NCBI RefSeq assembly: GCF_014852685.1 | Contig: NZ_JACZDF010000007.1 | Span: forward strand, 124,001-188,000 | Direction: 5' to 3' | Source of the DNA: Flavimobilis rhizosphaerae | GTDB lineage: Bacteria; Actinomycetota; Actinomycetes; Actinomycetales; Cellulomonadaceae | Length of the DNA stretch: 64,000 nt | Shown here: positions 45,820-64,000 of the stretch, in pieces | Layout of the letters: each line of letters starts with the position of its first letter | How positions within the stretch are numbered: the first letter of the stretch is position 1 | Program-made: the position numbers and the translations under genes | The notes under the pieces: model-generated | What the model was told of the DNA's origin: nothing | The model's input: the letters and a program-made list of their open reading frames with translations, nothing else | Database searches by the model: none

Positions 45820-45863
45820 TCCTCATTCCATGGGCCGGGCGCCGTGAGCAACGCGGCGTGCCC

Positions 45864-46373: not shown

Positions 46374-47537
46374 CCTTCGGCCCAGCGCGCTCTGTTCGAG
46401 CTCCGTCAGTGCGTACGCCCAGGGGATGCGCTCCTGTTCGAGCCGGACGTCGCCTGCGGCACGGAGCGCGCGGAGGGTGGCTGCCTCGTGCTCCGTCAGA
46501 GTGGAGAACGTGCCGCGCGTGGGCTTGGGTTCGGGAACCCAGAGGTCGCGGTGCGCGTCGAGAGTGGCGATGTCCATCAGGGCCGTGGTCACGTCCGGGT
46601 GCGCGGTGCGCAGCCGGTGCAGGATCGCGAAGCCGTGCGAGTCCAGGTCGCCCCAGTAGACGATCGAAGTCCGCAGCAACCACGGCAGCCCACCGAGGAC
46701 GTCGACGGCGTAGCCCGAGCCGTGGATCGCGACGACGCCCGGCCACGACGGCAGCGCGAGCAGCGTCTCGAGGTTCTCGACGACGAGAGCGATCCGGGGC
46801 TCGAAGGAGAGGGATGCGAGCTGTCGCGCCGGGGCGGAGAAGTCCTCGACACCGCCGGGGGCGATCCGCGAGTCGAGGATGCGGACGCGGACGAGGGGGT
46901 CGCTGTCGACGACACCGAGGGAGGGAGTGCCGGTGATGGCCGCGTGGAGAGCCGAGAGCACGGTGCGGTGGCTGGCGAACCACTTCGAGTCGACGCCACG
47001 AATAGGCAGCTGACGTGGGCGCAGCCCGGCGATGTCGGTCGCGAGGAGCCAGTCGAGCACGTCGACGACGGTGGTGCGCTCAGCATCCGTGTACGCGAGC
47101 ACCGTCGACGCGTGCCGGCGGAGCGCCGACGCGAGCGCGTCGGTCGGGCCGAAGCGTCCGTAGACGCCGGCGGCACTGGCTTTCAGGCGGCCGTAGTCCG
47201 TCGCGAGGCTCCCGCCGACGAATGCCGCGACAGCGTCGGCGTCGTGCAGGTGGAGCCGAACCGGGACGTCTTGGCGCCCGATGCTCCGCCACGTGCGCGT
47301 CTCCCATTCGACGACGGCGTGGCGGTCGAGGGGGAGCGCCCGCCACGCCCTGGCCCACGCCTCGGCGCCGCGTTCGTCGGTCAACATCTCCTTTTCGGTA
47401 GGCGGCTTGAGCGCGATCGTGACCAGTGGTGAGCCGTCGCGTCCGGCATCGTCGACGGGAAGCTGGGTGGCCCACGTCGCGAGGTGGCGCCGTAGCTTGC
47501 CTCGCGCGCTGTCCTGGGCCTCGCGCACAGTGATCAT
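45864..47537 (-). CDS. jetD: Wadjet nuclease JetD with an extra C-terminal beta-rich domain
   Basis: A 557-residue protein. Residues 1-388 are JetD: an N-terminal DUF3322-type region and a C-terminal DUF2220/TOPRIM part with VVENLETLL (Glu254) and YWGDLDSHGF (Asp297, Asp299), the metal-binding set by which JetD cleaves DNA. JetD normally ends about here. Residues 389-557 are an added segment: a linker with KPEKPLPKDG, then a domain with AYFVKLREID, PGRSVTVKVPLN, HGREYAFGPSGSYSQAQDDF and QQGGNLGTLGLDF. This matches a beta-rich domain that I know from secreted or membrane-anchored proteins, not from Wadjet. The ATG overlaps the jetC stop. Confidence 0.88.
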   Translation of the reverse strand: MITVREAQDSARGKLRRHLATWATQLPVDDAGRDGSPLVTIALKPPTEKEMLTDERGAEAWARAWRALPLDRHAVVEWETRTWRSIGRQDVPVRLHLHDADAVAAFVGGSLATDYGRLKASAAGVYGRFGPTDALASALRRHASTVLAYTDAERTTVVDVLDWLLATDIAGLRPRQLPIRGVDSKWFASHRTVLSALHAAITGTPSLGVVDSDPLVRVRILDSRIAPGGVEDFSAPARQLASLSFEPRIALVVENLETLLALPSWPGVVAIHGSGYAVDVLGGLPWLLRTSIVYWGDLDSHGFAILHRLRTAHPDVTTALMDIATLDAHRDLWVPEPKPTRGTFSTLTEHEAATLRALRAAGDVRLEQERIPWAYALTELEQSALGRRTSGNRSDTDRTAVADTPTRLAFTKPEKPLPKDGTVLWLTSKSNTEILKGNIRNGAYGTLRINVPSGTDAYFVKLREIDPGSGDVFGTIVRPGRSVTVKVPLNGNSRTTYRLSYGMGSTWHGREYAFGPSGSYSQAQDDFDFTEGSGWEVELIPQQGGNLGTLGLDFGSF

Positions 47538-50500
47538 GCCGGTGGCTCCTCCGTGCGCCACGGCACGAGGGAGATCGTGGACCGCCGGCGCGTCGGGTTC
47601 TCCACGGACGTGGCGGCGCCGACGTACGGCTCGATCGTCTGCAGGAGCTTCTGCGGGGTGGCCAGCACGAGCTGGAAGCCGAACTCGACGAAGACGTCGA
47701 GCGCCATGCGCGTGTAGCGCGAGTCGGCCTTGTCGAACGCCTCGTCGAAGATCACGGTGCCGTACCGGGGGAGCGGTTGGTCGACGTCGGCGAGCTGGTA
47801 GCGCAGCGCGGCGGCGAGGCAGAAGACGACGAGCTTCTGCTGCTGCCCGCCGGACATGGCGGCGCCGGAGTCGTAGGTCGCGTGGACGTGGCCGTGCTCG
47901 TCGACCTCGTTGGCGAGGAAGGTGACGTGCTGCCGGGTGTCGAGGCACTGCGCGCGCCATACCCGGTCGATGTGGTCGCTCGAGCCCAGCTTGCGCATGA
48001 TCTCGGCGAGCGTGGCGAACCGGCGTTCGGCTGTCTCGAGGTCGTCGTCTCCCCAGCTGCCCTCGGTCACGGAGCGCAGGTCGGCGAGGAACTGCTGGAC
48101 GGCTGGGGTTCTGCGGACTTTGGGCTTGAGTCGGAGGAACCGCCCGACGTCGAACGGGGAGCGTCGCAAGGAGTCGTTGACGGCGTCGAGCTTCTCCTCG
48201 ATCTCGCGTGGCGCGCTCATGATGTCGCTGACGAGCTGGCCCACGAGGTCACGCGACCGGTTGCGCAGCAGGCGCAGGAAGTCGGCCTCGTGGTCGGGGA
48301 GACCATGGGCGACGATGTCGTCGAGGATCGCGAGGTAGCCGGCCCTGTCGGCGAGGTCCGCCACGAGGTCGGCCGCCCGCGCTTCCCACCGTCCCTTGAA
48401 CTGGGTGGCGAGCTGGGTGACCTTGCGTCCGGCCGCGTCGGCGTCGCGGAGGGCGTTGTCCCGCTCCGTGCCCAGCTGCGCCTGGACCTTCTGACCGACC
48501 TCGGCGAGCGCGAACCGGTCGATGCGACGCTGCACGCGTCCGAAGCGGCGGTCGAGCTCGGCCGTGGTTGCCTCGTCCAGCTCCGGGACGGCGCCGGAGT
48601 CGATCTCCGTGCGCAACGCCGCGATGTCGCGCTCGAGGTCGCGCCGCTCGCGCTCAGCGACGCTCAGCGCGGAGCGCGCGGTCACCTCGGCGGCCTTGGC
48701 GGCGTCGCGCTCGCGGCTTGCCTGCTCGACGGCGGCGCCAGCGTCGCGCAGCACGGCGTCGTCTCGGGTGAGGTCGTCGAGCTGGCGGCGCAGCGCGGCT
48801 GCAGATCTGGTCGCGGCCGCCTGGTCCACGTCCGCCCATCGGGTCTCGCGGATGGTGCGCAGGGCGCCGAGCCTCTGGTCGGCTTCCGTCCTGCGCTTCT
48901 CCGCCCGTTCGACGACGTCGGTCGCCTCAGCGAGCTCGTCCGCGGCGGCGTGAAGCTGGGCGATGAGCGCCTCGAGCTTGGCTTCGCGGTCGCCCAGGAC
49001 CCATCGGCTGCGGTCGTTGATCCGGACGCGGTCGTCCTTCTCGTACCGGGTGCGGGAGGTCTTGATCTGGCCGTTGATCGTGACGGCGCGGTCGTGGGCG
49101 TCGAGCTCATCGGCGCTCTCGACGCAGGCGTAGTCGTAGCGGTCGGAGAGCTGGCCGGCGGTCCAGTCGCTGATGTGCCCGGTGCCGAGCCTGACGCGGT
49201 TGACCAGAGAGATGTCGCTGCGGGCGGGGCGCGGGGGAGTGAGCTCGTGCGGCACGACCTCGTAGACGAGGCGCGCTCCGATCGTGTGGGTGTCGACCCA
49301 TCGGCGGACCTGGGGCACGTGCTCGGCGCGCACGAGCATGGAGAGGGCCAGGGGCCGCAGCACGCGTTCGATCGCACCGGTCCAGCGTGCGTGCTCGGGA
49401 TCGATCTCGATGAGCTCTGCGGCGAACGGCAGCGCGGTGAGTGGCAGGCCGGTGGCTGCGGCGATGGCGTCGCGGACGGCGAGCAGCGCGGACGGCACGG
49501 TGGTCCGGCTGCGCTGCAGCGCAGCGATCTCGGCCTCGACCGCCCCGTGGGCGTCCTTGGCGCGGGTTCGACGCTCGAGCTCGGCGTGGGTGGGGCTGAC
49601 GGCGGACGGCTGGCTCATCTGCCGGTTGATCTCGGCGACGAGCTCGGTGAACTCGGCCTCGGTCGTCGGCGCGGCGGTCACACCGGCTGAGTGCAGCTGG
49701 CGTTGCAGGCCCTGCCAGCGGCTGGTGGTGTCGGCGAGGTGACGCTCCGCGGTGGCGAGGCTGGCGGTCAGGCTGGCGGCGAGGTCGCCGCCGAGCTCGG
49801 ACTGGCGGCGGCGCGCGTGGGCGAGCGCGTCGTCGGCGAGCTGGTGGTCAGCGGTCGCGCGTTCGACGTCCGCGTGGAGGCGTGCGGCGCGCTCGCTGAC
49901 CTCCTCGAGGGCGGACTCCGCGAGTCCGAGGCCGCGGCGCTTCTGGTAGGCGGGCACGCCGGCGGCCAGCGCCCGGGCGGTCTGCGCCGCGTACTCCGCA
50001 GCGTCGTACCTGTCTGACTCGGTGCGGAGCTCGAGCAGATGGTCGCGCTGCTCGCGGAGCTGGACGACGTGCTTGTGGGCGTCGTCGAGCTCACCGAACT
50101 GCGTGACGGCCTCGGCTGCGAGGGCGAACGTGGTCGGCTCGTCGAGCATGTAGTCGCGGAAGAGCTGGTCGAGGCTGTCCAGGCTCTTGGCCGCCTGGGT
50201 CCGGTGCAGGAGGCGCAGGGTGGCCTCGCCCGCGATTCCGAGGGTGTTGCACAGACGGGTGTAGAAGGCCTTGTGCTTGCCGTTCGCGGTGACGGCGGCC
50301 GAGGGGAACTCCTGCTGCAGTCGCCGGGTCTCGAGCCCGGTGCGCACATACGGCTCGAGGTCGCGCAGGTCGATCGGTGCGCGGTCGAGCAGGCACAGGT
50401 CTTGGAGGTCGGCTGCGGCCGTCGAGGTGCCGCGCAGGAAGAACAGGCGCGCCAGCGAGACTGTGCGTCCGGTTCCGTCCTCGTACTGGAGCACGATGCC

Positions 50501-50890
50501 GCTCCACGTGGCGGTGGGGCGCAGGTACGCAGTGACGACGCGGTCCTCGTTCTCGTCCGACGTGCGCGACCAGGCGCCGCGCACGTAACTGATGATGCTG
50601 CGCTGGTCGCCGCGGCTGGAGGTTCCTTGCGCTGCTTGGTTGAAACGGAGCCACTTGTCGGGTGTGAGGACCGCGGCGATCGCGTCGAGGAGCGAGGACT
50701 TGCCGGACCCTGAGGGGCCGGTGAGGAGGTGCCCTTGACGGGCGACCGGGATGCGGTAGATCGAGCCGTCGAACGTGCCCCAGTTCGCGACCTGGATCTC
50801 GCAGAGGCGCCACTGGCCCGGGGCGAGCTCCTGCAGGTCCGGCGCGGGAGCGACGTCGTCATCGGGGAGCGCGAAGAGGGTGTCGGTCAT
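47534..50890 (-). CDS. jetC: Wadjet SMC-like ATPase JetC (MukB/MksB type)
   Basis: An 1118-residue condensin-like motor. Walker A is GPSGSGKSS at residues 58-66. The ABC signature is SGGQQQKLV from residue 1013, and Walker B is VIFDEAFDKAD near 1046-1056. Between them lie long coiled-coil arms rich in Glu/Arg/Ala heptads (about 290-480 and 640-860) around a hinge region near 480-640. In Wadjet, JetC dimerises, extrudes DNA loops with JetA and JetB and hands small circular DNA to JetD for cleavage. ATGA-type overlaps couple it to jetB and jetD. Confidence 0.95.
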   Translation of the reverse strand: MTDTLFALPDDDVAPAPDLQELAPGQWRLCEIQVANWGTFDGSIYRIPVARQGHLLTGPSGSGKSSLLDAIAAVLTPDKWLRFNQAAQGTSSRGDQRSIISYVRGAWSRTSDENEDRVVTAYLRPTATWSGIVLQYEDGTGRTVSLARLFFLRGTSTAAADLQDLCLLDRAPIDLRDLEPYVRTGLETRRLQQEFPSAAVTANGKHKAFYTRLCNTLGIAGEATLRLLHRTQAAKSLDSLDQLFRDYMLDEPTTFALAAEAVTQFGELDDAHKHVVQLREQRDHLLELRTESDRYDAAEYAAQTARALAAGVPAYQKRRGLGLAESALEEVSERAARLHADVERATADHQLADDALAHARRRQSELGGDLAASLTASLATAERHLADTTSRWQGLQRQLHSAGVTAAPTTEAEFTELVAEINRQMSQPSAVSPTHAELERRTRAKDAHGAVEAEIAALQRSRTTVPSALLAVRDAIAAATGLPLTALPFAAELIEIDPEHARWTGAIERVLRPLALSMLVRAEHVPQVRRWVDTHTIGARLVYEVVPHELTPPRPARSDISLVNRVRLGTGHISDWTAGQLSDRYDYACVESADELDAHDRAVTINGQIKTSRTRYEKDDRVRINDRSRWVLGDREAKLEALIAQLHAAADELAEATDVVERAEKRRTEADQRLGALRTIRETRWADVDQAAATRSAAALRRQLDDLTRDDAVLRDAGAAVEQASRERDAAKAAEVTARSALSVAERERRDLERDIAALRTEIDSGAVPELDEATTAELDRRFGRVQRRIDRFALAEVGQKVQAQLGTERDNALRDADAAGRKVTQLATQFKGRWEARAADLVADLADRAGYLAILDDIVAHGLPDHEADFLRLLRNRSRDLVGQLVSDIMSAPREIEEKLDAVNDSLRRSPFDVGRFLRLKPKVRRTPAVQQFLADLRSVTEGSWGDDDLETAERRFATLAEIMRKLGSSDHIDRVWRAQCLDTRQHVTFLANEVDEHGHVHATYDSGAAMSGGQQQKLVVFCLAAALRYQLADVDQPLPRYGTVIFDEAFDKADSRYTRMALDVFVEFGFQLVLATPQKLLQTIEPYVGAATSVENPTRRRSTISLVPWRTEEPPA

Positions 50891-51540
50891 CGCTCGGTCT
50901 CCTCCGGGTCGGGTTCGGGGCTGTCTGGGGCGACGGTCCCGCCGCGAGCAGCGAGGTCGCGGTAGGACGCGGTCAGCGCGGCGACGCGGTCCTCGTCGAC
51001 GATGAAGCGCACCACGGGGGAGATCTCCGCGCGGTCCTCGCCGACGGCGTGGATGACGCGGAGGCGATCGCGCATGCGACCCCAGGCGCTGTTGAGGTTG
51101 CGCCGGAACGTGGTCTCGTCACCGTCGCGGTACACCATGAGGCGCTCGTAGACGTCGTCCTGGCCGACGATGACGCGTTGCTCGCCGGGGGCGGCGAGGA
51201 GCAGCTGGCGTAGGACGAGCAGCATGGCGGTGTCGATGAAGGTCAGGCGTTCGCTGCGCAGCGCCTGGGGCACGTCGACCTCCTGGGTGCGCACCTTGCG
51301 CGTGAAGGCGACCTCGTCGGTGCGGTCGAGGACGAGGTCGAGGAAGAGGTCGTGCAGCCGGGAGCGGACCGCGGCCTCGTCGGCGAGCAGCGCGGCCCAG
51401 AGCTGGGGCTTCTTCCGGCCCGAGAGGTAGGGGCCTTTGAGGATCTCGAGGAGCACGCGCCGTGAGGGCTCGGTGAGCGTCCCGGTGTCGGTGTTCCACA
51501 GTCGACGGTGCGAGCCGTCGAGACCGGCGTCGGTGCTCAT
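50887..51540 (-). CDS. jetB: Wadjet subunit JetB (MksE type, DUF4194)
   Basis: A 217-residue winged-helix protein of the DUF4194 family: RRVLLEILKGPYLSGRKKPQ, RLHDLFLDLVLDRTDEVAFT and AWGRMRDRLRVIHAV are typical segments. It is the KITE-like partner of the JetA kleisin. An acidic tail (PDSPEPDPEETER) ends the protein. The start and stop overlap jetA and jetC by four bases each. Confidence 0.92.
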   Translation of the reverse strand: MSTDAGLDGSHRRLWNTDTGTLTEPSRRVLLEILKGPYLSGRKKPQLWAALLADEAAVRSRLHDLFLDLVLDRTDEVAFTRKVRTQEVDVPQALRSERLTFIDTAMLLVLRQLLLAAPGEQRVIVGQDDVYERLMVYRDGDETTFRRNLNSAWGRMRDRLRVIHAVGEDRAEISPVVRFIVDEDRVAALTASYRDLAARGGTVAPDSPEPDPEETER

Positions 51541-52991
51541 GCGTCGATCCTCCTGAGGAAGGCGTGCGTGGCGAGGGTAGCGCGCCGGGTGCGGCCGTCG
51601 GTTCCAGTCCAGGTCACTTCTTCGTCCGCGTCGGTGGCGACCGTGCCGTAGCGCGCGGCGAGCGAGAGCAGCCCGACGACGCTGGCAAGCCCTTGGGTGG
51701 CGGGGTGAACGGCGAGGACCTCGGCCACGGTCGCGGTCGGCTGGGCGTCGAGGGTGGCGTTGACGTTGGTGGTGAGCTCGTCGAAGTCGATCTCGGTCTC
51801 ACGCGCGATCGCGGCGAGGACCGCGAAGTCGATGGTGCCGTGCTCTGCGTCGTCGAGTGGTGCGCCGGTCTCGAGCTCGGAGGGGTCCTCGAGGGTCAGC
51901 TCGCCGACGGACGAGAAGCGCATGGCGGACAGCTCGAGCTCGACGCCGATGTCGGCGTACGGCTTGGTGTGATGGCTGGCCGGAGCTGCGGCGGCGAGCG
52001 CCTCTTGGAGCAGGCCGCGTAGGGCCCGGTCGCGTTGGAACTCTTGGGAGTGGACGTAGCGCCGGAGTCCGCGGGCGAAGTCGGTGAGTGCACTGTGGAC
52101 CTCGCGGCTGCCGGTCTTGAGGTCGCGGACGAGCGTGCGCAGCGTGCGCCGGGACTCGAGCGGGAGCGCGTGCACGAAGTCGCGCGACAGGACGGCAGCG
52201 ACGTCGGCGTCGAGTGCGGAGGAGCGTTCGGGGTCGCGAAGAAGTGCGGAGAAAGCGGTGAAGGTGCGGCCCTCGTCGGACGACTCGATGAGGTCGACCC
52301 CACGGAAGATGTCGTCCAGGACCGTGCTCTGCGAGATGTCCGTGTCGAGAATGCTCGTGCGCAGGTCATGGTTGAGGGACTCGAAGCGCGCGCGGACGCC
52401 GGCGAAGTCGGCGGGGAGATCCTGCGCCTGGAGCAGGATGTCGACGATGCGCTCGACCGCCCTCCTGGCGTCAAGGACCGCGACCTCGCCCGCCTCGAGG
52501 CGAGCGACCTCCGCGTCGATGCGCTCGCGCTCCGCGGCCAGGGCCTCGAGCCGCCGCGTGACGTCGGGGTCGGTGTCGATGGCGAGCTGGCGGACCGCAG
52601 AGGCGAGGCTCACGAGCCGCGACTCGGTGACCGTTGTCCTGGGCGACTCGAGCTGCTGGAACAGCCGGATGCCCACCAGGGCGTCGGCCGAGAGCTCGTA
52701 CGTCTCGCCGCGGGCGTCGACGGCGGGGCGCCGCACCAGGAAGCCAGCGTTGCGCCAGTCGTCGCAGTACTTCTTGCCCGTCTGGGGGAGGCCAAGGTGG
52801 TCGCGGAGCGCTTCGAGGTCGATGTCGACGAGCTCGTGCAGCTCGTCGCAGGGGATCCGAGCGCCGGGGGCTGCCAGGTGTTCGGAGAGCAGTGCGACCG
52901 TGACGGCGGCGTTCCCCGAGCGCAGCAGGCGCAGGACGGCGCTCTCTTCGAGGAGGCGCGCGTAGGCGAGCGCGGTGGCGAGAGAGGACAT
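51537..52991 (-). CDS. jetA: Wadjet kleisin JetA (MksF type, DUF3375)
   Basis: A 484-residue DUF3375 kleisin: an N-terminal winged helix (AYARLLEESAVLRLLRSGNA), a helical bundle with RLEALAAERERIDAEVARLE and RGVDLIESSDEGRTFTAF, and a C-terminal winged domain (EVLAVHPATQGLASVVGLLS). It bridges the JetC heads. The ATG at 52991 has AGGA at good spacing. The open frame continues upstream through an unconserved stretch and is not used. It is the first gene of the jetABCD operon, 100 bases after the gene with the zinc motif. Confidence 0.93.
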   Translation of the reverse strand: MSSLATALAYARLLEESAVLRLLRSGNAAVTVALLSEHLAAPGARIPCDELHELVDIDLEALRDHLGLPQTGKKYCDDWRNAGFLVRRPAVDARGETYELSADALVGIRLFQQLESPRTTVTESRLVSLASAVRQLAIDTDPDVTRRLEALAAERERIDAEVARLEAGEVAVLDARRAVERIVDILLQAQDLPADFAGVRARFESLNHDLRTSILDTDISQSTVLDDIFRGVDLIESSDEGRTFTAFSALLRDPERSSALDADVAAVLSRDFVHALPLESRRTLRTLVRDLKTGSREVHSALTDFARGLRRYVHSQEFQRDRALRGLLQEALAAAAPASHHTKPYADIGVELELSAMRFSSVGELTLEDPSELETGAPLDDAEHGTIDFAVLAAIARETEIDFDELTTNVNATLDAQPTATVAEVLAVHPATQGLASVVGLLSLAARYGTVATDADEEVTWTGTDGRTRRATLATHAFLRRIDA

Positions 52992-53091
52992 GGGAGCATC
53001 CTGCCGGATGGGTGCGACATTGCTGTGAGGCTGGATGCAGGGCCGGAGTCCTTGGTAGGTAGGTGAGGGTTCGAACACGGCGAGATCGTGT

Positions 53092-54282
53092 TTACACACG
53101 CGGGTCGAACATCAGCGAGTGCCAGCTGTCGACGGACAAGGGGTCTGTCCATGCAGGCGTCTCCGGCAACAAGTCCTGTGTCGACGGAGACAGTGCGTCA
53201 AGGAGTCGCTCAACAAGCTGCCGGTCGCCGAGCGCGGCTAGCATCTTGGTCTCGCAGACGGGACCGATCCCGCGACGTGCGCTTTCGCCTGTGCGCAGCG
53301 GCCTGTTGCACATCGCACAGAATCCCTGCACTGGTTGGAGAAGCCGTGAGGCGCCGGGATAGTTGCGGAGCGCCGCCGGCAGCGGTGGAATCGGCGGCAC
53401 CGGATGGCGCTCGACGACTATCTCGAACTCCGCGGCCCGGCGATGCACTGCGGCGGCGAACGACTTGGTGAGGAAGTGGGCGAGCTCATGAGGGGTCGCC
53501 GCTGACACGATTCCGCGGTAGGGCTCATCTCGGAGAGTTCTCTTGTCCACGATGTGCGAAAGATCTATCAGTGCTTCCCTGTCACCGGCGCGCCACATCC
53601 ACCACCCGATCTCCCGTAGTGAGTTCGCTCGCTCTCGGTCGATGGTCGGCGTCCAGGCGACCAGACGGGTCTCGTTGCCCAGGCTGACCGGCGCGCTGTC
53701 GAAGACGACGGGACCGTCGTTGGTCTCTCGGACGTGCATGCGTCGTATGTACTTGTTGGCAAACTCGGCGCTGAGTGCCGCAGCCACCGCCTCGTGCGTG
53801 TCTTTGAAGACGCCCCGGCGATGGAGCAGGCGGATCGTCGCCCATCGTGACGTGGGCGCATCGACTCTCAACTCTGGTAGATGCTCGCGGAGCACAAACA
53901 CCGTTCTGTCGTCGTGCCGCGCGACAAGGCCGGACTCCTCGAGCAGCATTTGGGTTGCCTCGATCGTTCTCGGCCCGACCTCCCGGACAAGCTCCTGCGC
54001 ACGTTCGATCGCCTCGTCGGGTGTGAGCGCCAGGTGCGACCGCTTGACGGCCTGGAGGGCCGTGGGCAAGAACCTCGTCGGCTTCACGAGGGAGAACCAT
54101 TGGCCGCCCCTGCGCGTGAGCGCAGGGGAGCCGCCGAGTGCGTTCTCAACGTCGCGGGGGTCGAGGACTTCGTCCGCGTTGAACCTCTCGATGATCGACT
54201 CAGTCGTGAACGGTTGCGTCTGGTCTCGGGCGAGCACACACAGTTGGTCGAGTTGGACCGCGAGGGGGCGCGCTGATGCCAT
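53092..54282 (-). CDS. HTH-like protein with C-terminal DUF6011-type zinc motif
   Basis: A 396-residue protein directly upstream of jetA on the same strand. The N-terminal half looks like repeated winged-helix units (FTTESIIERFNADEVLDPRD, TIEATQMLLEESGLVARHDD, WATIRLLHRRGVFKDTHEAV). The C-terminal part has GFCAMCNRPLRTGESARRGI followed by GPVC, the CxxC...RGIGPxC pattern of DUF6011. GC content and codon choice are visibly less extreme than in the flanking core genes, as expected of transferred DNA. It may be a regulator or an accessory protein of the Wadjet operon; neither is known. The ATG at 54282 lacks a clear ribosome site. Confidence 0.7.
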   Translation of the reverse strand: MASARPLAVQLDQLCVLARDQTQPFTTESIIERFNADEVLDPRDVENALGGSPALTRRGGQWFSLVKPTRFLPTALQAVKRSHLALTPDEAIERAQELVREVGPRTIEATQMLLEESGLVARHDDRTVFVLREHLPELRVDAPTSRWATIRLLHRRGVFKDTHEAVAAALSAEFANKYIRRMHVRETNDGPVVFDSAPVSLGNETRLVAWTPTIDRERANSLREIGWWMWRAGDREALIDLSHIVDKRTLRDEPYRGIVSAATPHELAHFLTKSFAAAVHRRAAEFEIVVERHPVPPIPPLPAALRNYPGASRLLQPVQGFCAMCNRPLRTGESARRGIGPVCETKMLAALGDRQLVERLLDALSPSTQDLLPETPAWTDPLSVDSWHSLMFDPRV

Positions 54283-54473
54283 ACGTGTTAGTCGGCACGA
54301 GGGCTTCCCGGCTGTAGGAGCCTCGAACTTCTGGGCGGGGCGTCCAGCGATCTGGCCGCGTGGCTGCTCCGCCGGAGTCGAGGGCGGAGGAAGGAGTCGG
54401 TACGCGGAGATCCCGGACAAGCTTCACCTGGGAGAACACTGACAGCCCGCGGCACGATGACTAGGGTCATGAC
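54283..54473. promoter_or_regulatory. Divergent control region of the defence island
   Basis: 191 bases between the leftward arm (zinc-motif gene and jetABCD) and the rightward arm. It contains a TAGGGT box for the rightward genes near its right end. I see no clear -10 for the leftward gene and no long inverted repeat. Confidence 0.5.
54462..54467 (+). promoter_or_regulatory. -10 box of the DUF6308 gene, leaderless start
   Basis: TAGGGT with six bases to the ATG at 54474. Confidence 0.5.
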
Positions 54474-55154
54474 ATGTCGATCAAGCCAGCGTCGCTCTCG
54501 ATCCCGTCCATCCTGCACCCCGAGAACGTCGATCGGGCAGCGGAGCTGCTGCGGTCGTACATGGGCTTGGGCGCCAACCCTCCTTACACGGGGGCGTCGT
54601 TCGAGACGATCGGCGCGGAGTGGTCCCATCCGGGGGACGTGCACGATGTGACGCCTGCAGACGTCGTCGCGCTCGCGACACTCTCGGTCGAGGTTCGAGG
54701 GCCCGCCGCGATCGATCTGCTCGGCGCGCGTGGGCGCGAGGCGACTGGTCTCTTGCGCCAGATCCCGACGGACCTCGATCTGGTCGACGCGGAAGATGAG
54801 CACATCGACGACGCGTCACCGCTCGGCGAGCTGTGGCGCCTCGTCCGACGGGTGCCTGGGATGGGCCCTACGCGCACCAGCAAGCTCTTGGCGCGCAAGC
54901 GTCCGCGACTCGTTCCCGTCTATGACTCGGTGATCCAGGCTCAGCTTGGTTTGCGGGATTCGGGTGGATTCTGGGCTGGCCTTCGCAACGCGTTGCAGGC
55001 GGATGGTGCCTACCTGGATCGCCACCTGCAAGAGATCCGGGAACGAGCAGGCTTGGCCGAGCAGTTGTCGACGCTGCGGGTCTTCGACATCGTCGTCTGG
55101 ATGGATGGGCAGGGCACCAACGGCGCTGGTGAAGGACGGAGCGACGAGGAGTAG
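54474..55154 (+). CDS. DUF6308 family protein
   Basis: A 226-residue soluble protein. The opening LLRSYMGLGANPPYTGASFE and the later LGELWRLVRRVPGMGPTRTSKLLARKRP and VPVYDSVIQAQLG are the DUF6308 pattern. The GMGPTRTSKLLA segment resembles a helix-hairpin-helix, as found in DNA glycosylases and other DNA-binding proteins, and DUF6308 proteins are frequent in actinobacterial defence islands. Biochemistry is unknown. A leaderless ATG follows a TAGGGT box. It ends about 108 bases before the chosen helicase start and may be co-transcribed. Confidence 0.78.
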   Translation: MSIKPASLSIPSILHPENVDRAAELLRSYMGLGANPPYTGASFETIGAEWSHPGDVHDVTPADVVALATLSVEVRGPAAIDLLGARGREATGLLRQIPTDLDLVDAEDEHIDDASPLGELWRLVRRVPGMGPTRTSKLLARKRPRLVPVYDSVIQAQLGLRDSGGFWAGLRNALQADGAYLDRHLQEIRERAGLAEQLSTLRVFDIVVWMDGQGTNGAGEGRSDEE

Positions 55155-55216
55155 GTGTCGCTGCCAGGCGCGGTCGCGGCCCCCGGTCGATGCTCGGCGG
55201 CGCGCGCAAACCGGAC

Positions 55217-55222
55217 TAGGGT
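55217..55222 (+). promoter_or_regulatory. -10 box of the helicase gene
   Basis: TAGGGT, the same hexamer as before the DUF6308 gene, about 40 bases before the GTG at 55263. It would allow the helicase and methyltransferase to be made separately from DUF6308. Confidence 0.4.
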
Positions 55223-55262
55223 CAAGGTTCAGTCCGCAGTGACCGATGATTCTGGAGTGACA

Positions 55263-58172
55263 GTGACAGGTTTGGTAAGCGCCGCTGCGACATCGGAGTC
55301 GAGTGAGCGAGCGATCGCGCCTGGCTCTGTGGTCGTCGTCCGGGACGAGGAGTGGCTCGTCCGAGCCACCGAGGAGACGGCGGACGGCCTGCTGATCCGC
55401 GTCCAAGGGCTCGGCGAGCTCGTCCGCGACACCGAGGCGACCTTCTACACGAGCCTCGACGACGTCCACCCGCTCGACCCCGCACAAGCCAGGGTCGTCC
55501 CGGACGTCAGCTCGAACTACCGCACGTCGCGCCTCTGGCTCGAGTCGACGATCCGCAAGACCGCGGTCCCGCTCGCGGACCCTTCGCTCACCGTCTCGAC
55601 GCGCGCGCTCGCGGACGCGCTCTCCTACCAGCAGTCCGCGGTCCGCAAGGCGCTCGACCCGGCGAACCTCCGCCCGCGCATCCTGCTCGCGGACGCGGTT
55701 GGTTTGGGCAAGACCCTCGAGATCGGGATGATCCTCTCCGAGCTGGTTCGCCGCGGCCGTGGCGACCGCATCCTCATCGTGACGCCGCGCCACGTGCTGG
55801 AGCAGATGCAGCACGAGATGTGGTCCCGTTTCGCCCTGCCGTTCGTCCGCCTCGACTCGGCCGGCATCCAGCGCGTCCGCCAGAAGCTTCCCGCCACGCG
55901 CAACCCGTTCACGTACTACCGGCGCGTGATCATCTCGATCGACACCCTGAAGTCCGACCGGTACGTGGCGCACCTGTCCAAGCAGCGGTGGGATGCCGTC
56001 GTCATCGACGAGTCCCACAACCTCTCGAACTCCGCGACCCTCAACAACCGCCTCGCGCGCGTCCTTGCCCGCCAGTCGGACGCGCTGATCCTCGCCTCGG
56101 CCACCCCGCACAACGGCAAGAAGGAGTCCTTCGCCGAGCTCATCCGCCTGCTCGACCCCTCTGCCGTCCGGCCGGACGGGGAACTCGTCCCGCGGGAGGT
56201 GGAGCGCCTCGTCATCCGCCGGCACCGGCACAGCCCGGAGGTCGCGCAGGTCGTCGGGGCGGACTGGGCCGAGCGGCAGAAGCCGCAGAACATCCTCGTA
56301 CCGGCCACACCGGAGGAGAACGCGATCGCCCACGAGCTGGACGACGTCTGGCTCCACCCGGCCTCCGGTCGCACGCCCTACTCCGGCCAGAACGCCACGC
56401 TCTTCCCGTGGACGCTCGCGAAGGCGTTCCTCTCCTCCCCGGCGGCGCTGCAGGAGACGGTCCGCGCACGACGACGTCGTCTCACCACAGGCCCCGCGGC
56501 CGACACCGAGCGGGCCGCCCTGGACCGCCTCGAGCACCTGGCCACCGCCGCCCTCGCGAAGCCGTCAGCCAAGTACCAGCGCCTGCTCGAGCACCTCAAG
56601 CAGATCGGCATCAGCAAGGCTTCCCCCCACCGAGCGGTGATCTTCGCCGAGCGCATCTCCACGCTCCACTGGCTCCAGAAGCAGCTCATCAAGGACCTCG
56701 GCCTCCCAGTTGCAGGCGTCGAGATCATGCACGGCGGTCTGCCTGACGACGAGCAGCAGCGCATCGTCGAGGCCTTCAAGCAGTCCCACACCCCGGTGCG
56801 CGTGCTGGTGACCGGCGACGTCGCGTCCGAGGGCGTCAACCTGCACGCTCAGTGCCACGAGCTGATCCACTTCGACATCCCGTGGAGCCTCATCCGCATC
56901 GAGCAGCGCAACGGGCGCATCGACCGGTACGGCCAGAAGCACCCGCCGCGCATCACGACCCTCCTCCTCGACCCGACGAGCCAGGGCTTCTCGGGAGACG
57001 TCCGCGTCCTCGCCCGACTCATGGAGCGCGAGCACGAGGCGCACACCGCCCTCGGCGACGTCGCCTCTCTCATGGGCGAGTACGACGTGGGCAAGGAGGA
57101 GGAGGAGATCCGCAAGGTCCTCGCCGGCCAGAAGGACTTCGACCAGGTCGTGAAGTCGGTCGAGGACGCGACGGCCGCCGACGACCTCGCCGCGCTCTTC
57201 GCGCGTCTGGCAGGAACAGCCCCCGCCGACGACGGCGCCTCGCACCAGTCCGCATCCGTCGCCCCGGTGATCGCGCCGGCCGCGCAGTACGGCACGGGCC
57301 TCTACCCCGACGAGGTCACCTACCTGGACGAGGCCCTGCGCGCCGCGTACATCGACCCCACCGGCAAGGTGACGAACAATGGCGTCGAGTGGCGCCACCA
57401 CACCGGCCACGGCATCGCCGAGCTGACACCGCCGCGGGATCTCGTCCAGCGCCTCGAGGTGCTCCCGCAGTCCTACCTCGCCGACCGCAAGGTGACCCAG
57501 AGCCTGAAGCTCGCGACAACCCCGGCCAAGGGCGCCGAGCGTCTGCGCGCCGCGCTGACGGACGAGAACGAGTCCTCCTGGCCGGACGCGCACTACCTCG
57601 CACCGCTCCACCCCGTGCTGGAGTGGGCGTCGGACCGTGCGCTGGCGTCTCTGGGGCGCAACGAGGTCTTCGCGGTCCGCGGTGACGTCGAGGCTGCGAC
57701 GGTCCTCCTGCTGGGCACCCTGACGAACCGCCGCGGGCAGGTCGTCGCGGCGTCCTGGCTCACGGTCCAGTTCCCGGACCTCGACAGCCCGGACTTCGCC
57801 TTGGTCAACCCGCACGAGTCCGCGTCCGCTGCGCTGTCTGCGCTCGGTTGGACGGCGGCTCGCACCAACCCAGGCGCGCTCGCTGGGACCGAGCGTCTCA
57901 CCGCTCTCATCGCCCCCGCCGTCAGCAAGGCCCGCGCGCAGATGGGCCAGGTGTTCGCCGCGGCGGAGGCCGACGTCGCCGCCCGCGTCGCCGAGTGGTC
58001 GACGCGCCTGGACGAGTGGGACGAGGAGGCTGGGACCCTCCTGCAGTACAAGGACCTCAAGCTGCGGCGGATCAGCGTGGAGCAGGAGCGTGAGCTGGTG
58101 ACGGCGATGAACCCGGACCGTCAACTGGTCCGTCCGTTGCTGGTCGTCGTCCCCGAAGGAGGTGTGGCGTGA
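55263..58172 (+). CDS. drmD: SNF2-family helicase, DrmD-like
   Basis: A 969-residue superfamily 2 ATPase. After a short leader it begins IAPGSVVVVRDEEWLVRATE, the usual DrmD opening. Motif I is ADAVGLGKTLEIGMIL (about residue 142), motif II VVIDESHNLSN (about 248), motif III ASATPHNGKK, and motif VI QRNGRIDRYGQKH. The C-terminal 300 residues are helical and family-specific. In class 1 DISARM, DrmD precedes the adenine methylase, as here. GGAG five bases before the GTG at 55263 sets the start; GTGs at 55239 or 55155 are alternatives. The stop overlaps the methyltransferase start. Confidence 0.88.
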   Translation: MTGLVSAAATSESSERAIAPGSVVVVRDEEWLVRATEETADGLLIRVQGLGELVRDTEATFYTSLDDVHPLDPAQARVVPDVSSNYRTSRLWLESTIRKTAVPLADPSLTVSTRALADALSYQQSAVRKALDPANLRPRILLADAVGLGKTLEIGMILSELVRRGRGDRILIVTPRHVLEQMQHEMWSRFALPFVRLDSAGIQRVRQKLPATRNPFTYYRRVIISIDTLKSDRYVAHLSKQRWDAVVIDESHNLSNSATLNNRLARVLARQSDALILASATPHNGKKESFAELIRLLDPSAVRPDGELVPREVERLVIRRHRHSPEVAQVVGADWAERQKPQNILVPATPEENAIAHELDDVWLHPASGRTPYSGQNATLFPWTLAKAFLSSPAALQETVRARRRRLTTGPAADTERAALDRLEHLATAALAKPSAKYQRLLEHLKQIGISKASPHRAVIFAERISTLHWLQKQLIKDLGLPVAGVEIMHGGLPDDEQQRIVEAFKQSHTPVRVLVTGDVASEGVNLHAQCHELIHFDIPWSLIRIEQRNGRIDRYGQKHPPRITTLLLDPTSQGFSGDVRVLARLMEREHEAHTALGDVASLMGEYDVGKEEEEIRKVLAGQKDFDQVVKSVEDATAADDLAALFARLAGTAPADDGASHQSASVAPVIAPAAQYGTGLYPDEVTYLDEALRAAYIDPTGKVTNNGVEWRHHTGHGIAELTPPRDLVQRLEVLPQSYLADRKVTQSLKLATTPAKGAERLRAALTDENESSWPDAHYLAPLHPVLEWASDRALASLGRNEVFAVRGDVEAATVLLLGTLTNRRGQVVAASWLTVQFPDLDSPDFALVNPHESASAALSALGWTAARTNPGALAGTERLTALIAPAVSKARAQMGQVFAAAEADVAARVAEWSTRLDEWDEEAGTLLQYKDLKLRRISVEQERELVTAMNPDRQLVRPLLVVVPEGGVA

Positions 58173-61100
58173 GCGCGTCGGACGCGATCGTCATCGGTGA
58201 AGCGTGGATCTCTGAGCACTTCTTCACCACCGAGGCCAAGTCCCAGTCGTTCCAGGCGCGCGTGCTGGAGCGCCGCAAGGAGTGGGACGCCGAAGACGCC
58301 GAGGACCGCGCCACCGTGCGGTCGCGGTTCACCCACGCACGCCAGGGCCTGGAGGTCGACCTCGCGGCCCTCGCGGAAAAGTCCGGCAGCTCGCTCGCCG
58401 CAGCCGCCGAGGACGTCCACACACGTCTGCTCGACGTGCTCGGCTTCACCGGCCACGGCCTGCACCACGAGCGCACCGGACCGCTCATCCGCGTCTCGGC
58501 GCCCGGCATCACCGACGGCGCCCCACTCGCTATCGTCCTCGCCCGGCCCGTGGCCGCGATCGAGGACCTTCTGTCCAAGGACGAGCCGTCCCTCCTGGAG
58601 TCGTTCGCTCTGGAGGAGGGCGGGGAGTCCTACACCTCCGTCGCGCGCCTGCTCTCGGCCCTCTTCGTCGACGACGACGCCCCCGCGCTCGCCCTGGTTC
58701 TCGCGGGTCGCTGGGCGCTGCTCGCCGAGCGGGAGCGGTGGGCCGAGGGCCGGTATCTCGCGGTCGACGTCCAGCTCGTGTGCGAGCGCAACGACGCGCG
58801 CCGCGGCAAGGAGATCGACCGCGCCCTGACCTGCCTGTCGGCGGAGTCCGTCGCACCCGACGCCGACGGCGGCCTGTGGTGGCACGGCATCCTCGAGGAG
58901 TCCGTCAAACACACCGTCGGTGTCTCGCAGGACCTGCGGGACGGCGTGCGGCTGTCCATCGAGATCATCGCGAACGAGGTCGTCCGCCGGCGCGCGGCTC
59001 AGGGCCTTGGACCGCTGCCGGGTGACCAAGCGCAGCCCCTCGCCAAGCAGTCCCTGCGGTTCCTGTACCGGATCCTCTTCCTCCTCTACGCGGAGGCGTC
59101 GCCCGAGCTGGGTGTGCTCCCGGTCGGTGCCCCGGAGTACGCGCAGGGCTACAGCCTCGACCGCCTGCGGGAGCTCGTGCAGGTCGAGCTCGCCACCCCC
59201 CCAGGCCCGCTCGGGCACGCACCTGTACGACTCCCTTGGGCTCCTCTTCCGGCTCGTCGACCGTGGGCACAAGACCACCGACGACGGCGAGACGATGGCT
59301 CCGGGCCTGGCGTTCAACCCGCTCCGCGCTGACCTGTTCAAGCCCGAGGCCACCGTGCTCATCGACGACGTCGGTCTCGGGAACGAGGCGCTTCAGAAGG
59401 TCCTCGGCCACCTGCTCCTGAGCAAGGAGGCCCGCGGCCGCGACCGAGGGTTCATCTCCTACGCCGAACTCGGAATCAACCAACTCGGCGCGGTGTACGA
59501 GGGGCTCATGTCCTATACCGGCTTCTTCGCCGAGACGGACCTGTACGAGGTCGCCAAGAACGGTGACCCGAGCAAGGGGTCCTGGGTGGTCCCCGTCGAC
59601 CGCGCCGAGGGGATCGAGGCCAAGGACTTCGTCACCGCGGAGGACCCGCACACCGGCGAACGCAAGCCGGTCATCCACTACCAGGGTGAGTTCGTCTACC
59701 GCCTCGCGGGCCGGGAGCGCCAGCAGTCGGCGTCGTACTACACCCCCGAGGTCCTGACCCGCTTCACGGTCGGGCAGGCCCTCGAGGAGCTCCTCGACCA
59801 GGACGGCGAACGCACGCCGGCGTCGGACATCCTCAATCTCACGGTGTGCGAGCCGGCCCTGGGCTCGGGCGCGTTCGCAATCGAAGCGGTCCGCGAGCTT
59901 GCCGAGCAGTACCTCCAGCGACGCCAGCACGAGCTCGGCCAGCGCATCGACCCCGACGAGTACCCGCGCGAGCTGCAGCGGGTCAAGGCGTACCTCGCCC
60001 TGCACAACGTCTACGGAGTGGACCTCAACGCGACCGCGGTCGAGCTCGCGGAGATCTCCCTGTGGCTCGACACGATGGTCCAGGGGCTCGACGCCCCGTG
60101 GTTCGGCTTGCATCTCCGGCGTGGGAATTCGCTCATCGGTGTGCGACGCGCGGTGTTCCGGCGGGACCAGGTGACGAGCAAGGCGTTCCTCAAGGACGTC
60201 CCCAGGGACGTTCCGATGACGTCGCTCGCCGACGACGTCGCCCACGGCCGCCTGGCCACTGACGTCGGCGGCGGAGTGCATCACTTCCTCCTGCCCGCAG
60301 CAGGGTGGGGCTCGGCCGTCGACGCCAAGGAGGCGAAGCACCTCGCGCCCGAGGCGATCGCCCGGCTCAAGGCGTGGCGGTCGAGCGTGCTGGCCAAGCC
60401 GAGCAAGTCGCAGGTCGACGCGCTCGTGGATCTTGCGTACCGCGTCGAGTCCCTGTGGCAGATCGCGTGGCAGCGGTTGGAGATCGCCGAACAGGAGATC
60501 CGACGTGCGATCCCGGTCTGGGGCAGCGAGGGCCTGTCCTCCGGGGGGGCGGTCCAGCGCGAGCAGATCGAGGAGGCGCTCCGCGACGCGAGTGGCGCGT
60601 ATCAGCGCCTGCGTCGCGTCATGGATGCCTGGTGCGCGTTGTGGTTCTGGCCGCTCACCGACTCGCTGACATCACGCGAGGTTGACGGGCGCTTCGAACG
60701 CATTCAACCGCCGAGCCTCGACCAATGGATCGCTGCCCTGCAGATGCTGCTCGGGCGGCACGCAGGGAAGGCGCGCACGCAGGCCGGAGGTAATCAAACA
60801 CTCGGAGCCGGAACCTCCTGGGAAGAGCTCGCTGACTACGAGGATGTCGACCGAGGCTTCGCGAGCGCGATGCCGGTCGAGAAGGTCCTCGACGCCCACC
60901 CGTGGCTCGAGGTCTGCGAGACGATCGCTCATCAGCAGGGGTTCTTCCACTGGGAGCTCGACTTCGCCTCGGTGTTCGCGCGGGGCGGGTTCGACCTGCA
61001 AGTCGGTAACCCACCATGGGTGCGGCCCGACTGGGATGAGCGAGCGGTCCTTGGCGAACTGGATGTGCGTTGGGTGCTCGACGGGAAGATCTCCGAGACT

Positions 61101-62855
61101 GTCGCGGCCTCCCGTCGAGCGAAGCACCTGCAGAGCCCGGGCGCCGCCGACTACCTGGCTGATGCGGCGGCAGCGGTTCACTCTGTGCGTTCGACACTGA
61201 CTAGCCCGAGCCTCTACCCCCATCTGACGGGTCTGCGGCCCGACCTCTATCGCTGCTTCATGGAACAGGTGTGGCGACACGGTTCCATGCGCGGGTCGAG
61301 CGGTCTCATCCACCCTGAGACCCACTTCACGGACGAGAAGGCGGGGCTTCTTCGGGCTGCTACGTACCGTCGCCTTCGGCGGCACTGGCAGTTCCTCAAC
61401 GAGCTCGTCCTCTTCGAGATCGACCACCACGTCTCGTTCGGCGTACACATCTACGGCGCTAAGCGGGTGAGCCCGTCATTCCTTCAGGGCACCTCCCTCT
61501 ACCACCCGGACACCGTGACGCGCTCGCTCATACATGACGGGTCTGGTGCTGAGCCGGGCCTCAAGGACCCAGACGGCAGATGGGATCTCCGGCCCCACCG
61601 CGGCCGTGTCGTCGAGGTCACCAGCGAGACGCTGGCGACTTGGCACGCGATCTTGGAAACCTCTGACGTCCCCGTTGGTCGAAGCCGAATGGTCTACGCG
61701 GTGAACCGATCGACTGCATCAGTTCTGGACAAATTGTCGCGATCGCCTCGCCTCGGTTCGCTCGATATACAGTTCTCCCAGGGCTGGAACGAGACCACGG
61801 ACTTCAGGCGCGGCTTCTTCGCCAAGCAGTGGGGGGCTCCAGATACGTGGGATGACGTCATCCTGCAGGGCCCACACCTGCACGTCGCGACGCCGCTGTA
61901 CAAGACGCCGAACAAGACGATGCTCCACAATCTCGACTGGTCGGCCACGGACTTCGAGGCGTTGGCGCCCGACGCCATCCCGGTGACCGCCTACAAGCCA
62001 GCCGGTGACCGCTACGAGTACGACTGCGCCTACACCGACTGGGGAACCGAAGACGACCCCAAGCCGGCTCGTGACTACTACAGAGTCGCTTGGCGAAACA
62101 TGGCAAACAACGTGAGTGAGCGGACGTTCACACCGGTCTTGATCCCACCAGGGGCTGCGCACATCCACGGTGTGACGTCGATGGGTTCCACCAACCTGCC
62201 GCTGCCGGAACTCGTGGACGTCGCAGCAACGGCCAGCTCTTTGCTGGCAGATTTCTCAGTCCGTGCGGTGCCAAAATCAACGATCAGTGCAGGAACCGTC
62301 GCCCGACTGCCAGCTCCTGCCGGCGAGTATGTCAGGGCGCTCCTGCGATTGCGCATTTTGCGGCTCAACTGCGTCACGTTCGCATATTCGGAACTGTGGG
62401 AAAGCGCGTTCGAGGATGCCTTTAACGACGACAGATGGTGCAGTTCTATGCCGTCGAAACTGGGAGACGTCGCTGCGAGGTGGACCGAGCGTACGCCTCT
62501 TCGGGTAGCGCTTGAGCGCCGCCAGGCCCTGGTTGAGGTCGACGCGCTCGTGGCTCTGACGCTCGGGATCAGCGCGGAGGAGCTCTGCGCGACCTACCGC
62601 ACCCAGTTCCCAGTCCTCTATGGCTACGACCGCAACGCCTATTACTACGACGCCAGCGGTCGTCTCGCTCCGAATTCGGTCCTGACCATCTGGCGGAAGA
62701 AGGGTGACCGCATCACGGAGGAGGAGCGGACCGCCGTCCACCCCGGTTCGGGCATCGCCTACACCTACGAGTTGCCGTTCGTGACGCTCGACCGTGAGGC
62801 GGACATGCGGCAGGCCTACGCCGAGTTCGAGCGGCGGCTGGCGGAGCGGTCGTGA
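58169..62855 (+). pseudogene. Large Eco57I/PglX-type adenine methyltransferase, frameshifted in a C7 tract
   Basis: Read through one frameshift, this is a 1561-residue type IIG/PglX-like N6-adenine methyltransferase of the kind that accompanies DrmD. The first frame (from the GTG overlapping the helicase stop) is good to about residue 343 (RLRELVQVELAT). Removing one C from the run at 59196-59202 joins it to THLYDSLGLLFRLVDRGHKT and the rest. SASYYTPEVLTRF and VCEPALGSGAFAIEAV are the AdoMet motifs, and GNPPWVRPDW is the NPPW catalytic motif. The last 500 residues are target recognition. As read, the product stops at 59332. Sequencing error, phase variation or true loss all remain possible. 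Confidence 0.85.
59196..59202 (+). repeat. C7 homopolymer at the methyltransferase frameshift
   Basis: Seven C between GCCA and AGGCCC. Six C would keep the methyltransferase open from 58169 to 62855; seven shift the frame and lead to a stop at 59330-59332. Confidence 0.9.
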
Positions 62856-64000
62856 GCGAACTTCTGCCCACGGTCCATGCGGCGCGCATCCAGGACTCGC
62901 TCACGCACTACCTGACCACGACGTTCGCGCTCACGGATGCTGAGGTTCAGGACGCGCTCGACCGGTTCCTCTCGGACCCGGACGACGGCATGTTCAAGGG
63001 CCCGTACGTCCGCCTCCGCCTGCCGTTCCGCCCGGCTGAGCCCGGCTGGCGGGACAGCCTGGAGTGGTACGGCGGGTTCGACCCGCCCTACGGACACCAG
63101 GCCGCAGCGTTTGCGCGGCTGTCGTCGATGGCAGCCGGCCAACCACGGCGGCCGCAGCCGACACTCGTCACCACGGGTACCGGGTCCGGCAAGACCGAGG
63201 CGTTCCTCTATCCGATCCTCGATCACGTGCTGCGCGCACGGCGCGCAGGGGTCCGGGGGACGAAGGCGCTGATCCTCTACCCGATGAACGCCCTGGCGAA
63301 TGACCAGGCGCTGCGCCTCACCCAGATCCTCACCGGCAGCCCCGAACTCTCGACCATCACCGCCGCCGTCTACACAGGGCAGAAGGGTCCGCAGCGCACG
63401 AAGGTTAGCGCCGACGGCCTCATCACCGACCGCCACGTCATTCGTGACGAGGCACCGGACATCCTGCTGACCAACTACAAGATGCTCGATCAGCTGCTCC
63501 TCCGGGCCGAGGACCAGGACATCTGGCGCCAATCCGCGACGAGCCTGCAGTACCTCGTTCTTGACGAGTTCCACACGTACGACGGCGCCCAGGGCACGGA
63601 CGTCGCCATGCTCCTGCGTCGTCTCGGGCTAACCCTCAAGGCTCACTGGCCGCAGGACGACCCCCACCTCACTCCAGAGGACCGCGGGCGCCCGCTCGGC
63701 CGCATCACGCCAGTCGCGACGTCCGCCACCCTCGGCGACAAGGGTGACCCGAGCACCATGCTCGACTTCGCCCGGACCGTCTTCGGCGAGGACTTCCCCG
63801 TCGACGCCGTCGTTACCGAGTCCCGACTGAGCTTGGACGAATGGGTCGGGGATGCTCCCGCCCGGATGTCCGCTCGCGGCCTGACACCGGTGGACGTCGC
63901 CGGCACCGACGTCGCCAGCGCCCTGGCGATCCTCACAGACCTCGGTGATGCACCCGACGGCGCCGTCCTGGCCCGCACGGTGTTCGGCCACCTCTACGAC
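62852..64000 (+). CDS. Large DEAD/DEAH-box helicase, N-terminal part (runs off the window)
   Basis: The first 383 residues of an open frame that reaches the right edge without a stop. The GTG overlaps the methyltransferase stop (GTGA). A helical lead (MSELLPTVHAARIQDSLTHY) precedes YGHQAAAF (Q motif, residues 80-87), TLVTTGTGSGKTEAFLYPIL (motif I, 108-115), LVLDEFHTYDGAQGTD (motif II DEFH, 238-241) and VATSATLG (motif III, 289-295). Spacing and sequence fit the very large defence helicases that end in DUF1998, such as the DruE/DrmA group; the C-terminus that would decide this is not in the window. It is probably the third subunit of the system. Confidence 0.85.
   Translation, partial: MSELLPTVHAARIQDSLTHYLTTTFALTDAEVQDALDRFLSDPDDGMFKGPYVRLRLPFRPAEPGWRDSLEWYGGFDPPYGHQAAAFARLSSMAAGQPRRPQPTLVTTGTGSGKTEAFLYPILDHVLRARRAGVRGTKALILYPMNALANDQALRLTQILTGSPELSTITAAVYTGQKGPQRTKVSADGLITDRHVIRDEAPDILLTNYKMLDQLLLRAEDQDIWRQSATSLQYLVLDEFHTYDGAQGTDVAMLLRRLGLTLKAHWPQDDPHLTPEDRGRPLGRITPVATSATLGDKGDPSTMLDFARTVFGEDFPVDAVVTESRLSLDEWVGDAPARMSARGLTPVDVAGTDVASALAILTDLGDAPDGAVLARTVFGHLYD

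Follow-up and report, generated by a model that had tools for sequence, protein, structure and literature searches.

The right end of a 64,000-nucleotide stretch of Flavimobilis rhizosphaerae DNA (contig NZ_JACZDF010000007.1, positions 124,001 to 188,000 of the forward strand, G000:C19:124001-188000; hereafter the window) raises the question of which defence system is encoded by a run of large helicase and methylase genes that leaves the window unfinished. A first-pass annotation, made within the window, had described the run as DISARM-like and perhaps a hybrid or an undescribed system. Our results assign it, with a probability of about 0.95, to ARMADA type II (armA-armB-armC-armD); a DUF6308 gene precedes it, and the opposite strand next to it carries a full Wadjet type I system. 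As judged from sequence, this identification rests on the four-gene order, on one-to-one homology to the E. coli ATCC 8739 proteins and on conserved catalytic residues. The operon is real, well-defined and of a known kind, and will be a small surprise to a specialist; its assignment settles the identity of an apparent unknown hybrid and adds a distant ARMADA II member that retains all eight of the tested catalytic residues.

The source contig extends to 195693, that is 7.7 kb beyond the window, and the genes were followed into that part. All lie on the + strand. The DUF6308 gene (54474..55154, 226 residues; Pfam PF19827, 207 bits), an accessory, non-core neighbour and a candidate HhH-GPD-like protein, is followed by armA (55155..58172), which encodes a BrxHII/RapA-like SNF2 helicase identified by BLAST to E. 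coli ArmA. The armB gene is spread over two frames, one for the N-terminal part (58169..59332) and one for the methylase part (58920..62855). The armC gene starts at 62852, leaves the window at 64000 and ends at 69268 (L002:9852-16268), coding for a YprA/DruE-like helicase of 2138 residues. Directly 3' of it and outside the window lies armD (L002:16268-18424), for a UvrD/GajB-like helicase of 718 residues; it is the sole gene between armC and the contig end, which comes 269 bp past it. The first-pass annotation had correctly noted an overlapping operon. Overlaps of 4 bp join armA to armB and armB to armC, and one of 1 bp joins armC to armD, so the four arm genes are probably translated as one unit.

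The proteins were compared with those of the ARMADA II locus of E. coli ATCC 8739, taken from the annotated record, where the genes have the same order. In the available portion of the ARMADA preprint (Bell et al. 2025, PMC12458937), type II consists of a BrxHII-like ArmA, a PglX-like ArmB, a YprA-family ArmC and a GajB-like ArmD with a RelE-like front, in strict order. By BLAST, ArmA is 34.5% identical to its E. coli counterpart over 947 residues (464 bits), ArmC 30.1% over 1928 residues (642 bits) and ArmD 32.2% over 707 residues (290 bits), while the two ArmB pieces give 36% over 193 residues (105 bits) and 34.8% over 1203 residues (645 bits). The eight positions mutated in E. coli, as given in that portion of the preprint, were taken from the NCTC 12900 copy and mapped onto ATCC 8739, in which all eight hold the stated residue (K, D, N or G). 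All eight are conserved here in the alignment to ATCC 8739, Walker A and B of ArmA included. Their mutation in E. coli is described there as abolishing protection in six cases and reducing it in two (PMC12458937).

The S-adenosylmethionine-binding (GSG) and NPPW motifs of an adenine methylase are present in the methylase part of armB, the two pieces having been searched separately. Pfam finds an MZB/DUF1998 domain fused to the YprA helicase in ArmC, whose C-terminus shares with E. coli ArmC a PD(F/Y)VL ... F(V/L)DG..FH segment that has no Pfam match. The UvrD/GajB portion of ArmD is supported by Pfam (UvrD) and by PADLOC, which labels it NERD+UvrD and GajB.

PADLOC 2.0.0, of 2023, predates ARMADA, and no ARMADA name is found among its listed matches; it labels armA as DrmD (315 bits), armB as a type IIG restriction-methylase and armC as DruE3 (255 bits). 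The first label invites a reading as class 1 DISARM, in which drmD and drmMI are followed by drmA, drmB and drmC: DrmD is the best PADLOC match of the SNF2 helicase, and DrmD- and DrmMI-like genes do stand in the class 1 order. However, the helicase scores 347.2 bits on the NCBIfam DrmD model against a cut-off of 610 and 108.6 against 950 on a second DrmD model, the DrmA model gives 24.7 bits, its cut-off being 999, and for the two pieces of the methylase a type IIG-labelled model yields 1256 and 220 bits where the best DrmMI model yields 140 and 36. Rightward extension, which the first-pass annotation had set as the check that might yield an ordinary DISARM, led instead into the fused MZB/DUF1998 helicase and then a UvrD-like fourth gene; drmA, drmB and drmC were not found between armC and the contig end, the part of the genome searched for drm genes. 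Class 1 DISARM is thus refuted by the downstream genes and the curated cut-offs and keeps hardly any likelihood, in agreement with the earlier wording that this is DISARM-like but not a standard DISARM. The DruE3 label, which bears out the remark that the third gene opens like DruE, would suit a Druantia of the type III kind or an undescribed DISARM-Druantia hybrid, but it comes from a library older than ARMADA. In direct pairwise comparison ArmC aligns to E. coli DruE3 in segments only, with a best score of 120 bits against the 642 bits to E. coli ArmC; the operon holds no druH, and its four-gene set is the one described for ARMADA II. This second alternative was rejected on the ArmC comparison and we consider it very improbable; gene order, E. 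coli homology and catalytic residues all replace the proposed hybrid by ARMADA type II. Since the 2023 profile library names the parts DrmD, type IIG and DruE, loci of this kind can be wrongly classed under DISARM or Druantia.

Relatives were collected by scanning one genome per species (84,980 species) with the methylase part, which gave 393, and the best 80 of these 393 were analysed. The armA gene lies upstream of armB in 79 of the 80, and the contig of the last one starts inside armB. A start of armC at most 500 bp from armB was found in 43/80, with armD next in 42 of these 43 and the contig running out in the remaining one. Elsewhere, armC is further off (24/80), does not occur within 10 kb (8/80) or is preceded by the contig end (5/80). 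The armB-armC junction is a frequent insertion site, 24 of the 80 loci having 0.7-9.8 kb between the two genes (L014, L015, L039, L040, L043, L044, L046 and others). Ten proteins from these gaps were scanned and seven have a Pfam match (AIPR, GmrSD twice, an MTES_1575 helicase-nuclease, ABC-3C CTD7, DUF4365 and DUF2510); by these matches, several belong to defence families. The available portion of the preprint (PMC12458937) holds no mention of such an insertion site. In plasmid records, YprA relatives of ArmC were detected in 325, of which 30 cover at least 80% of the query. In several of the listed E. coli and Klebsiella plasmids a class I methyltransferase is annotated under the ArmC match; these are perhaps ARMADA type I.

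Several observations weigh against the assignment to ARMADA type II. The armD gene was seen in 50 of the 80 relatives; in the others armC is far off or undetected, or the retrieved sequence stops too early. The BLAST alignments to E. coli omit the last ~300 residues of ArmC and the first ~150 of ArmB. The Vsr-type nuclease of ArmC was judged by motif alignment alone, and the front of ArmD has no RelE match in Pfam, so that its RelE-likeness is taken from the alignment to E. coli ArmD, which begins at residue 18. Finally, armB is not one open frame: it passes from the frame of 58169-59332 to that of 58920-62855 at a run of seven cytosines (59196-59202, + strand). Homology stops near residue 338-343 of the first frame, begins near residue 95 of the second and switches frame at this C7 tract; the two pieces match positions 2-326 and 333-1531 of the PADLOC model PDLC03611. 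The "giant" methylase of about 1560 residues in the first-pass annotation was therefore a sum across two frames, and its size is ordinary for the family, the model having a length of 1532 and E. coli ArmB 1642 residues. Deletion of armB abolishes protection in E. coli, according to the available portion of the preprint (PMC12458937), and this copy, as sequenced, is for that reason predicted to be inactive for defence unless the break is an assembly error or a reversible slip. The split weakens the case that this copy is functional but leaves its family assignment untouched.

Whether the break exists in the cell is an evenly balanced matter. A sequencing or assembly indel that leaves the operon intact has about an even chance: the shift falls exactly on a homopolymer, one of three runs of at least seven in the 64 kb; the frames of armA, armC and armD are uninterrupted, with conservation at all eight tested residues; and armB is one open frame in 79/80 relatives (three of them cut by a contig end), which argues for function. 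Against an indel, a run of seven guanines in the same gene (60543-60549) shows no shift. A reversible slip that toggles the methylase on and off, that is phase variation, would also place a frame change at a C7 tract within a methylase gene. Slippage is reportedly found in Streptomyces pglX, though seven is short for a slippage switch. Restriction-modification genes are in general known to undergo phase variation, as stated in a published account (PMC12707154). However, the tract is not conserved: among the 79 intact relatives, 5 carry a run of at least seven anywhere in armB, and their six runs all lie in the methylase part, past the site equivalent to 59196-59202. The absence of the tract from relatives speaks against a conserved phase switch in armB, and we regard a reversible slip as quite unlikely. 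The single other relative whose armB is split over two frames is L050, a contig of a metagenome-assembled genome. The private frameshift is worth checking.

The start of armA is also uncertain. Counted in residues of the called frame, the match begins only at 36, 38 and 54 in three of seven relatives; in the remaining four a match of low identity extends to residues 4-15, across stop codons in two. As far as these alignments go, the true start is perhaps at about 55236-55260, and the tight DUF6308-armA junction therefore depends on an unproven start. An 11-mer, GACTAGGGTCA, occurs twice in the window, both times on the + strand: at 54459..54469, just 5' of the DUF6308 ATG, where its TAGGGT can be read as a -10 box, and at 55214..55224, where it precedes the conserved portion of armA. 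TAGGGT is found nowhere else in the window on either strand. The pair is possibly a shared promoter or operator, a promoter-like reading that we infer. A strict sigma-70 scan of 54300-55400 detected no promoter. As a common promoter 5' of armA, TAGGGT was rejected: of 76 loci, 4 have it within the 220 bp that precede armA, versus 7 of 1520 random stretches, which makes it a minority feature at most. An Rfam scan of 44000-64000 gave no match at gathering scores.

The DUF6308 gene leads the operon at this locus, as the first-pass annotation had said, but at none of the 80 related ones (0/80). A tblastn search (E up to 1e-4) found no DUF6308 in the 80 fetched armB loci. Of 79 such loci, 71 include 3 kb or more of sequence before armA, but none reaches 3 kb beyond armD (48 measured); because of this limited sequence past armD, the search for PF19827 was extended to the whole genomes of all 80, where it was detected anywhere in 11/80 (5/38 and 6/42). 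In three of them the gene is found 1-3 kb beyond armD, in the same orientation (L014 of G107, L015 of G139 and L077 of G176) and in one it lies 6.7 kb from ARMADA on the opposite strand (L005 of G100); in the remaining seven, no ARMADA gene was present in the stretch fetched around the match. One UvrD match of 163 bits, close to PF19827 in the Cellulomonas genome of L038, is a distant helicase, and the armD of that genome is on another contig. With DUF6308 within 3 kb of ARMADA in only 3/80 relatives, the check on its co-occurrence with this gene order, set by the first-pass annotation, led to its rejection as a core ARMADA gene. Among 99 relatives PF19827 is found in 23, armC in 8 and both in 2, the window's own genome included, which is close to the 1.9 expected by chance.

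A tree of armA was built from 69 rows (the window, E. coli and 67 of the 80 loci), leaving out eight loci with a stop in the translated BLAST segment and five in which the armA match was short or absent. The stops of L005, the one inspected among the eight, fall in an overextended region that precedes the conserved part. In the tree L014 and L015 cluster with L039, away from the branch of the window; L077 and L005 are not in the tree. Since L014 and L015 branch apart from the window, the pairing of DUF6308 with ARMADA probably arose more than once, in different positions. The genome of the window holds a second, partial DUF6308 (G000:C20:1424-1678, a 117-residue frame).

For the neighbours of DUF6308, 10 proteins were scanned with Pfam, eight of them hand-picked genes upstream of DUF6308 in other genomes. 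These eight are HsdM and HsdS (L086), NOV_C proteins (L104 and L090), an SbcC-like ATPase (L096), an alpha/beta hydrolase and a P450 (L106) and one protein without a Pfam match (L095). A common partner gene was not retained, the only recurrent upstream neighbour being the NOV_C-type protein, at two loci. At one of them, in Isoptericola halotolerans (L104:17876-19470), a 307-residue NOV_C protein overlaps the DUF6308 gene by 4 bp and lies 125 bp after armD; its front is EVE-like by eye only. Of 26 matching plasmid records six neighbourhoods were read, with a mixed outcome: CBASS genes, an EcoRI-family methylase with DUF262, a DEAD/DEAH helicase, and helicase plus integrase genes were seen once each, and the other two have no annotated defence gene and carry a MobF relaxase instead. 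Among viral contigs, 12 pattern matches yielded no true DUF6308 relative. This uncontrolled survey of neighbours suggests that DUF6308 has a defence-island habit; as a recurrent neighbour it is worth checking, and may be a glycosylase-like defence gene.

The glycosylase idea comes from the protein itself. In an alignment of 12 DUF6308 members, K137, A140, R141, K142, R143 and P148 are invariant and D151 is present in 11. A profile of 19 sequences, some of them fragments, aligns with eight MutY proteins over 40 ungapped columns (three further MutY-like proteins and two others were found but not used). The alignment superposes the PGxG hairpin and puts D151 on the MutY Asp, which we take to be the catalytic one, so that a helix-hairpin-helix (HhH) and a Gly/Pro-Asp motif are both present. 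Its score of 37.4 (probability 59-65%) exceeds the maximum of 200 column shuffles, 19.7, with 0/200 higher. The comparison with Nth gave 22.3, with one of 200 shuffles higher and hence little support, and that with an AlkA-like set a probability of 4%, a figure without a shuffle control. No HhH-GPD match was obtained in a Pfam scan of the 12 members; beside DUF6308 itself, seven families matched weakly, four of them HhH or OGG-like models, each in one or two members. A PDB sequence search gave a best E of 0.76, and the single-sequence structure model was poor, too poor for a structure search (predicted local distance difference test score of 38.7). A full-text search of the open PubMed Central literature returned no paper on DUF6308, and the word is absent from the main text of the ARMADA preprint.

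These features allow a tentative reading of DUF6308 as an HhH-GPD-like protein that has gone unrecognised, perhaps a DNA glycosylase, and would act as a portable defence accessory excising modified phage bases beside systems that read or write modifications; we think it unlikely, though with a real chance of being right. Modification-linked contexts are seen with ARMADA here, in Isoptericola, in Cellulosimicrobium and in a record labelled Sphaerisporangium, with HsdM/HsdS and with NOV_C proteins. The Brig family defends against phage by base excision, and a published account (PMC13160076) places Brig3 in the uracil-DNA-glycosylase superfamily. That superfamily is distinct from HhH-GPD; if the reading were true, DUF6308 would defend as a glycosylase whose fold differs from that of Brig3.

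How the four ARMADA proteins would work together can be proposed by transfer from E. coli. ArmB, a PglX/YeeA-like adenine methylase, would mark self DNA, and the ArmA and ArmC helicases would engage unmarked invading DNA, which the C-terminal Vsr-type segment of ArmC may cut. ArmD would contribute a UvrD/GajB-like helicase with a RelE-like front, and the four proteins acting jointly would stop phage replication by a direct route that leaves the cell alive. According to the preprint (PMC12458937), none of the four genes is dispensable in E. coli, where protection is direct and non-abortive. Phage protection by ARMADA II has been demonstrated in E. coli and would apply to this copy by transfer; we likewise infer self-marking, the cut target and the division of labour, whereas the genes, their order and overlaps and the catalytic residues are observed at this locus.

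On the - strand, PADLOC finds the complete Wadjet type I at 45864-53099: JetA (51537-53099, 617 bits), JetB (50887-51540, 259 bits), JetC (47534-50890, 1297 bits) and JetD (within the frame 45864-47960, 377 bits). Upstream of jetA, a gene at 53092-54420 codes for 442 residues with a DUF6011 match. Further left, an ATPase-like protein of 579 residues (43286-45025, + strand) has PADLOC matches to mad3 (167 bits), mad8 and AriA.

Set beside known systems, the locus shares with class 1 DISARM a DrmD/BrxHII-like SNF2 helicase followed by a PglX/DrmMI-like adenine methylase, as well as a YprA-family helicase, but lacks drmB and drmC, has DUF1998/MZB fused into the helicase and adds a UvrD/GajB-like helicase. 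With Druantia type III it has in common a YprA-family helicase of similar length whose best PADLOC labels are DruE; it differs by the absence of DruH, by the presence of armA, armB and armD and by an ArmC far closer to E. coli ArmC. DUF6308 resembles the HhH-GPD glycosylases (MutY) in hairpin and Asp, but the match is limited to the hairpin region. The three core families are also those of ARMADA type I, which generally has the YprA gene first, ArmD being named for type II in the available portion of the preprint (PMC12458937); here armA comes first and armD is present. The closest likeness is to ARMADA type II of E. coli ATCC 8739 and NCTC 12900, which has these four genes, ordered and oriented alike, and shows homology over most of each length. 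Compared with these, the present operon shows about 30-36% identity, a split armB frame and a DUF6308 gene in front, and stands in a GC-rich genome, with its nearest armA relatives actinobacterial in the armA tree. Here as in E. coli, ARMADA lies beside another defence system, Wadjet in this genome and Druantia III with Zorya II in E. coli.

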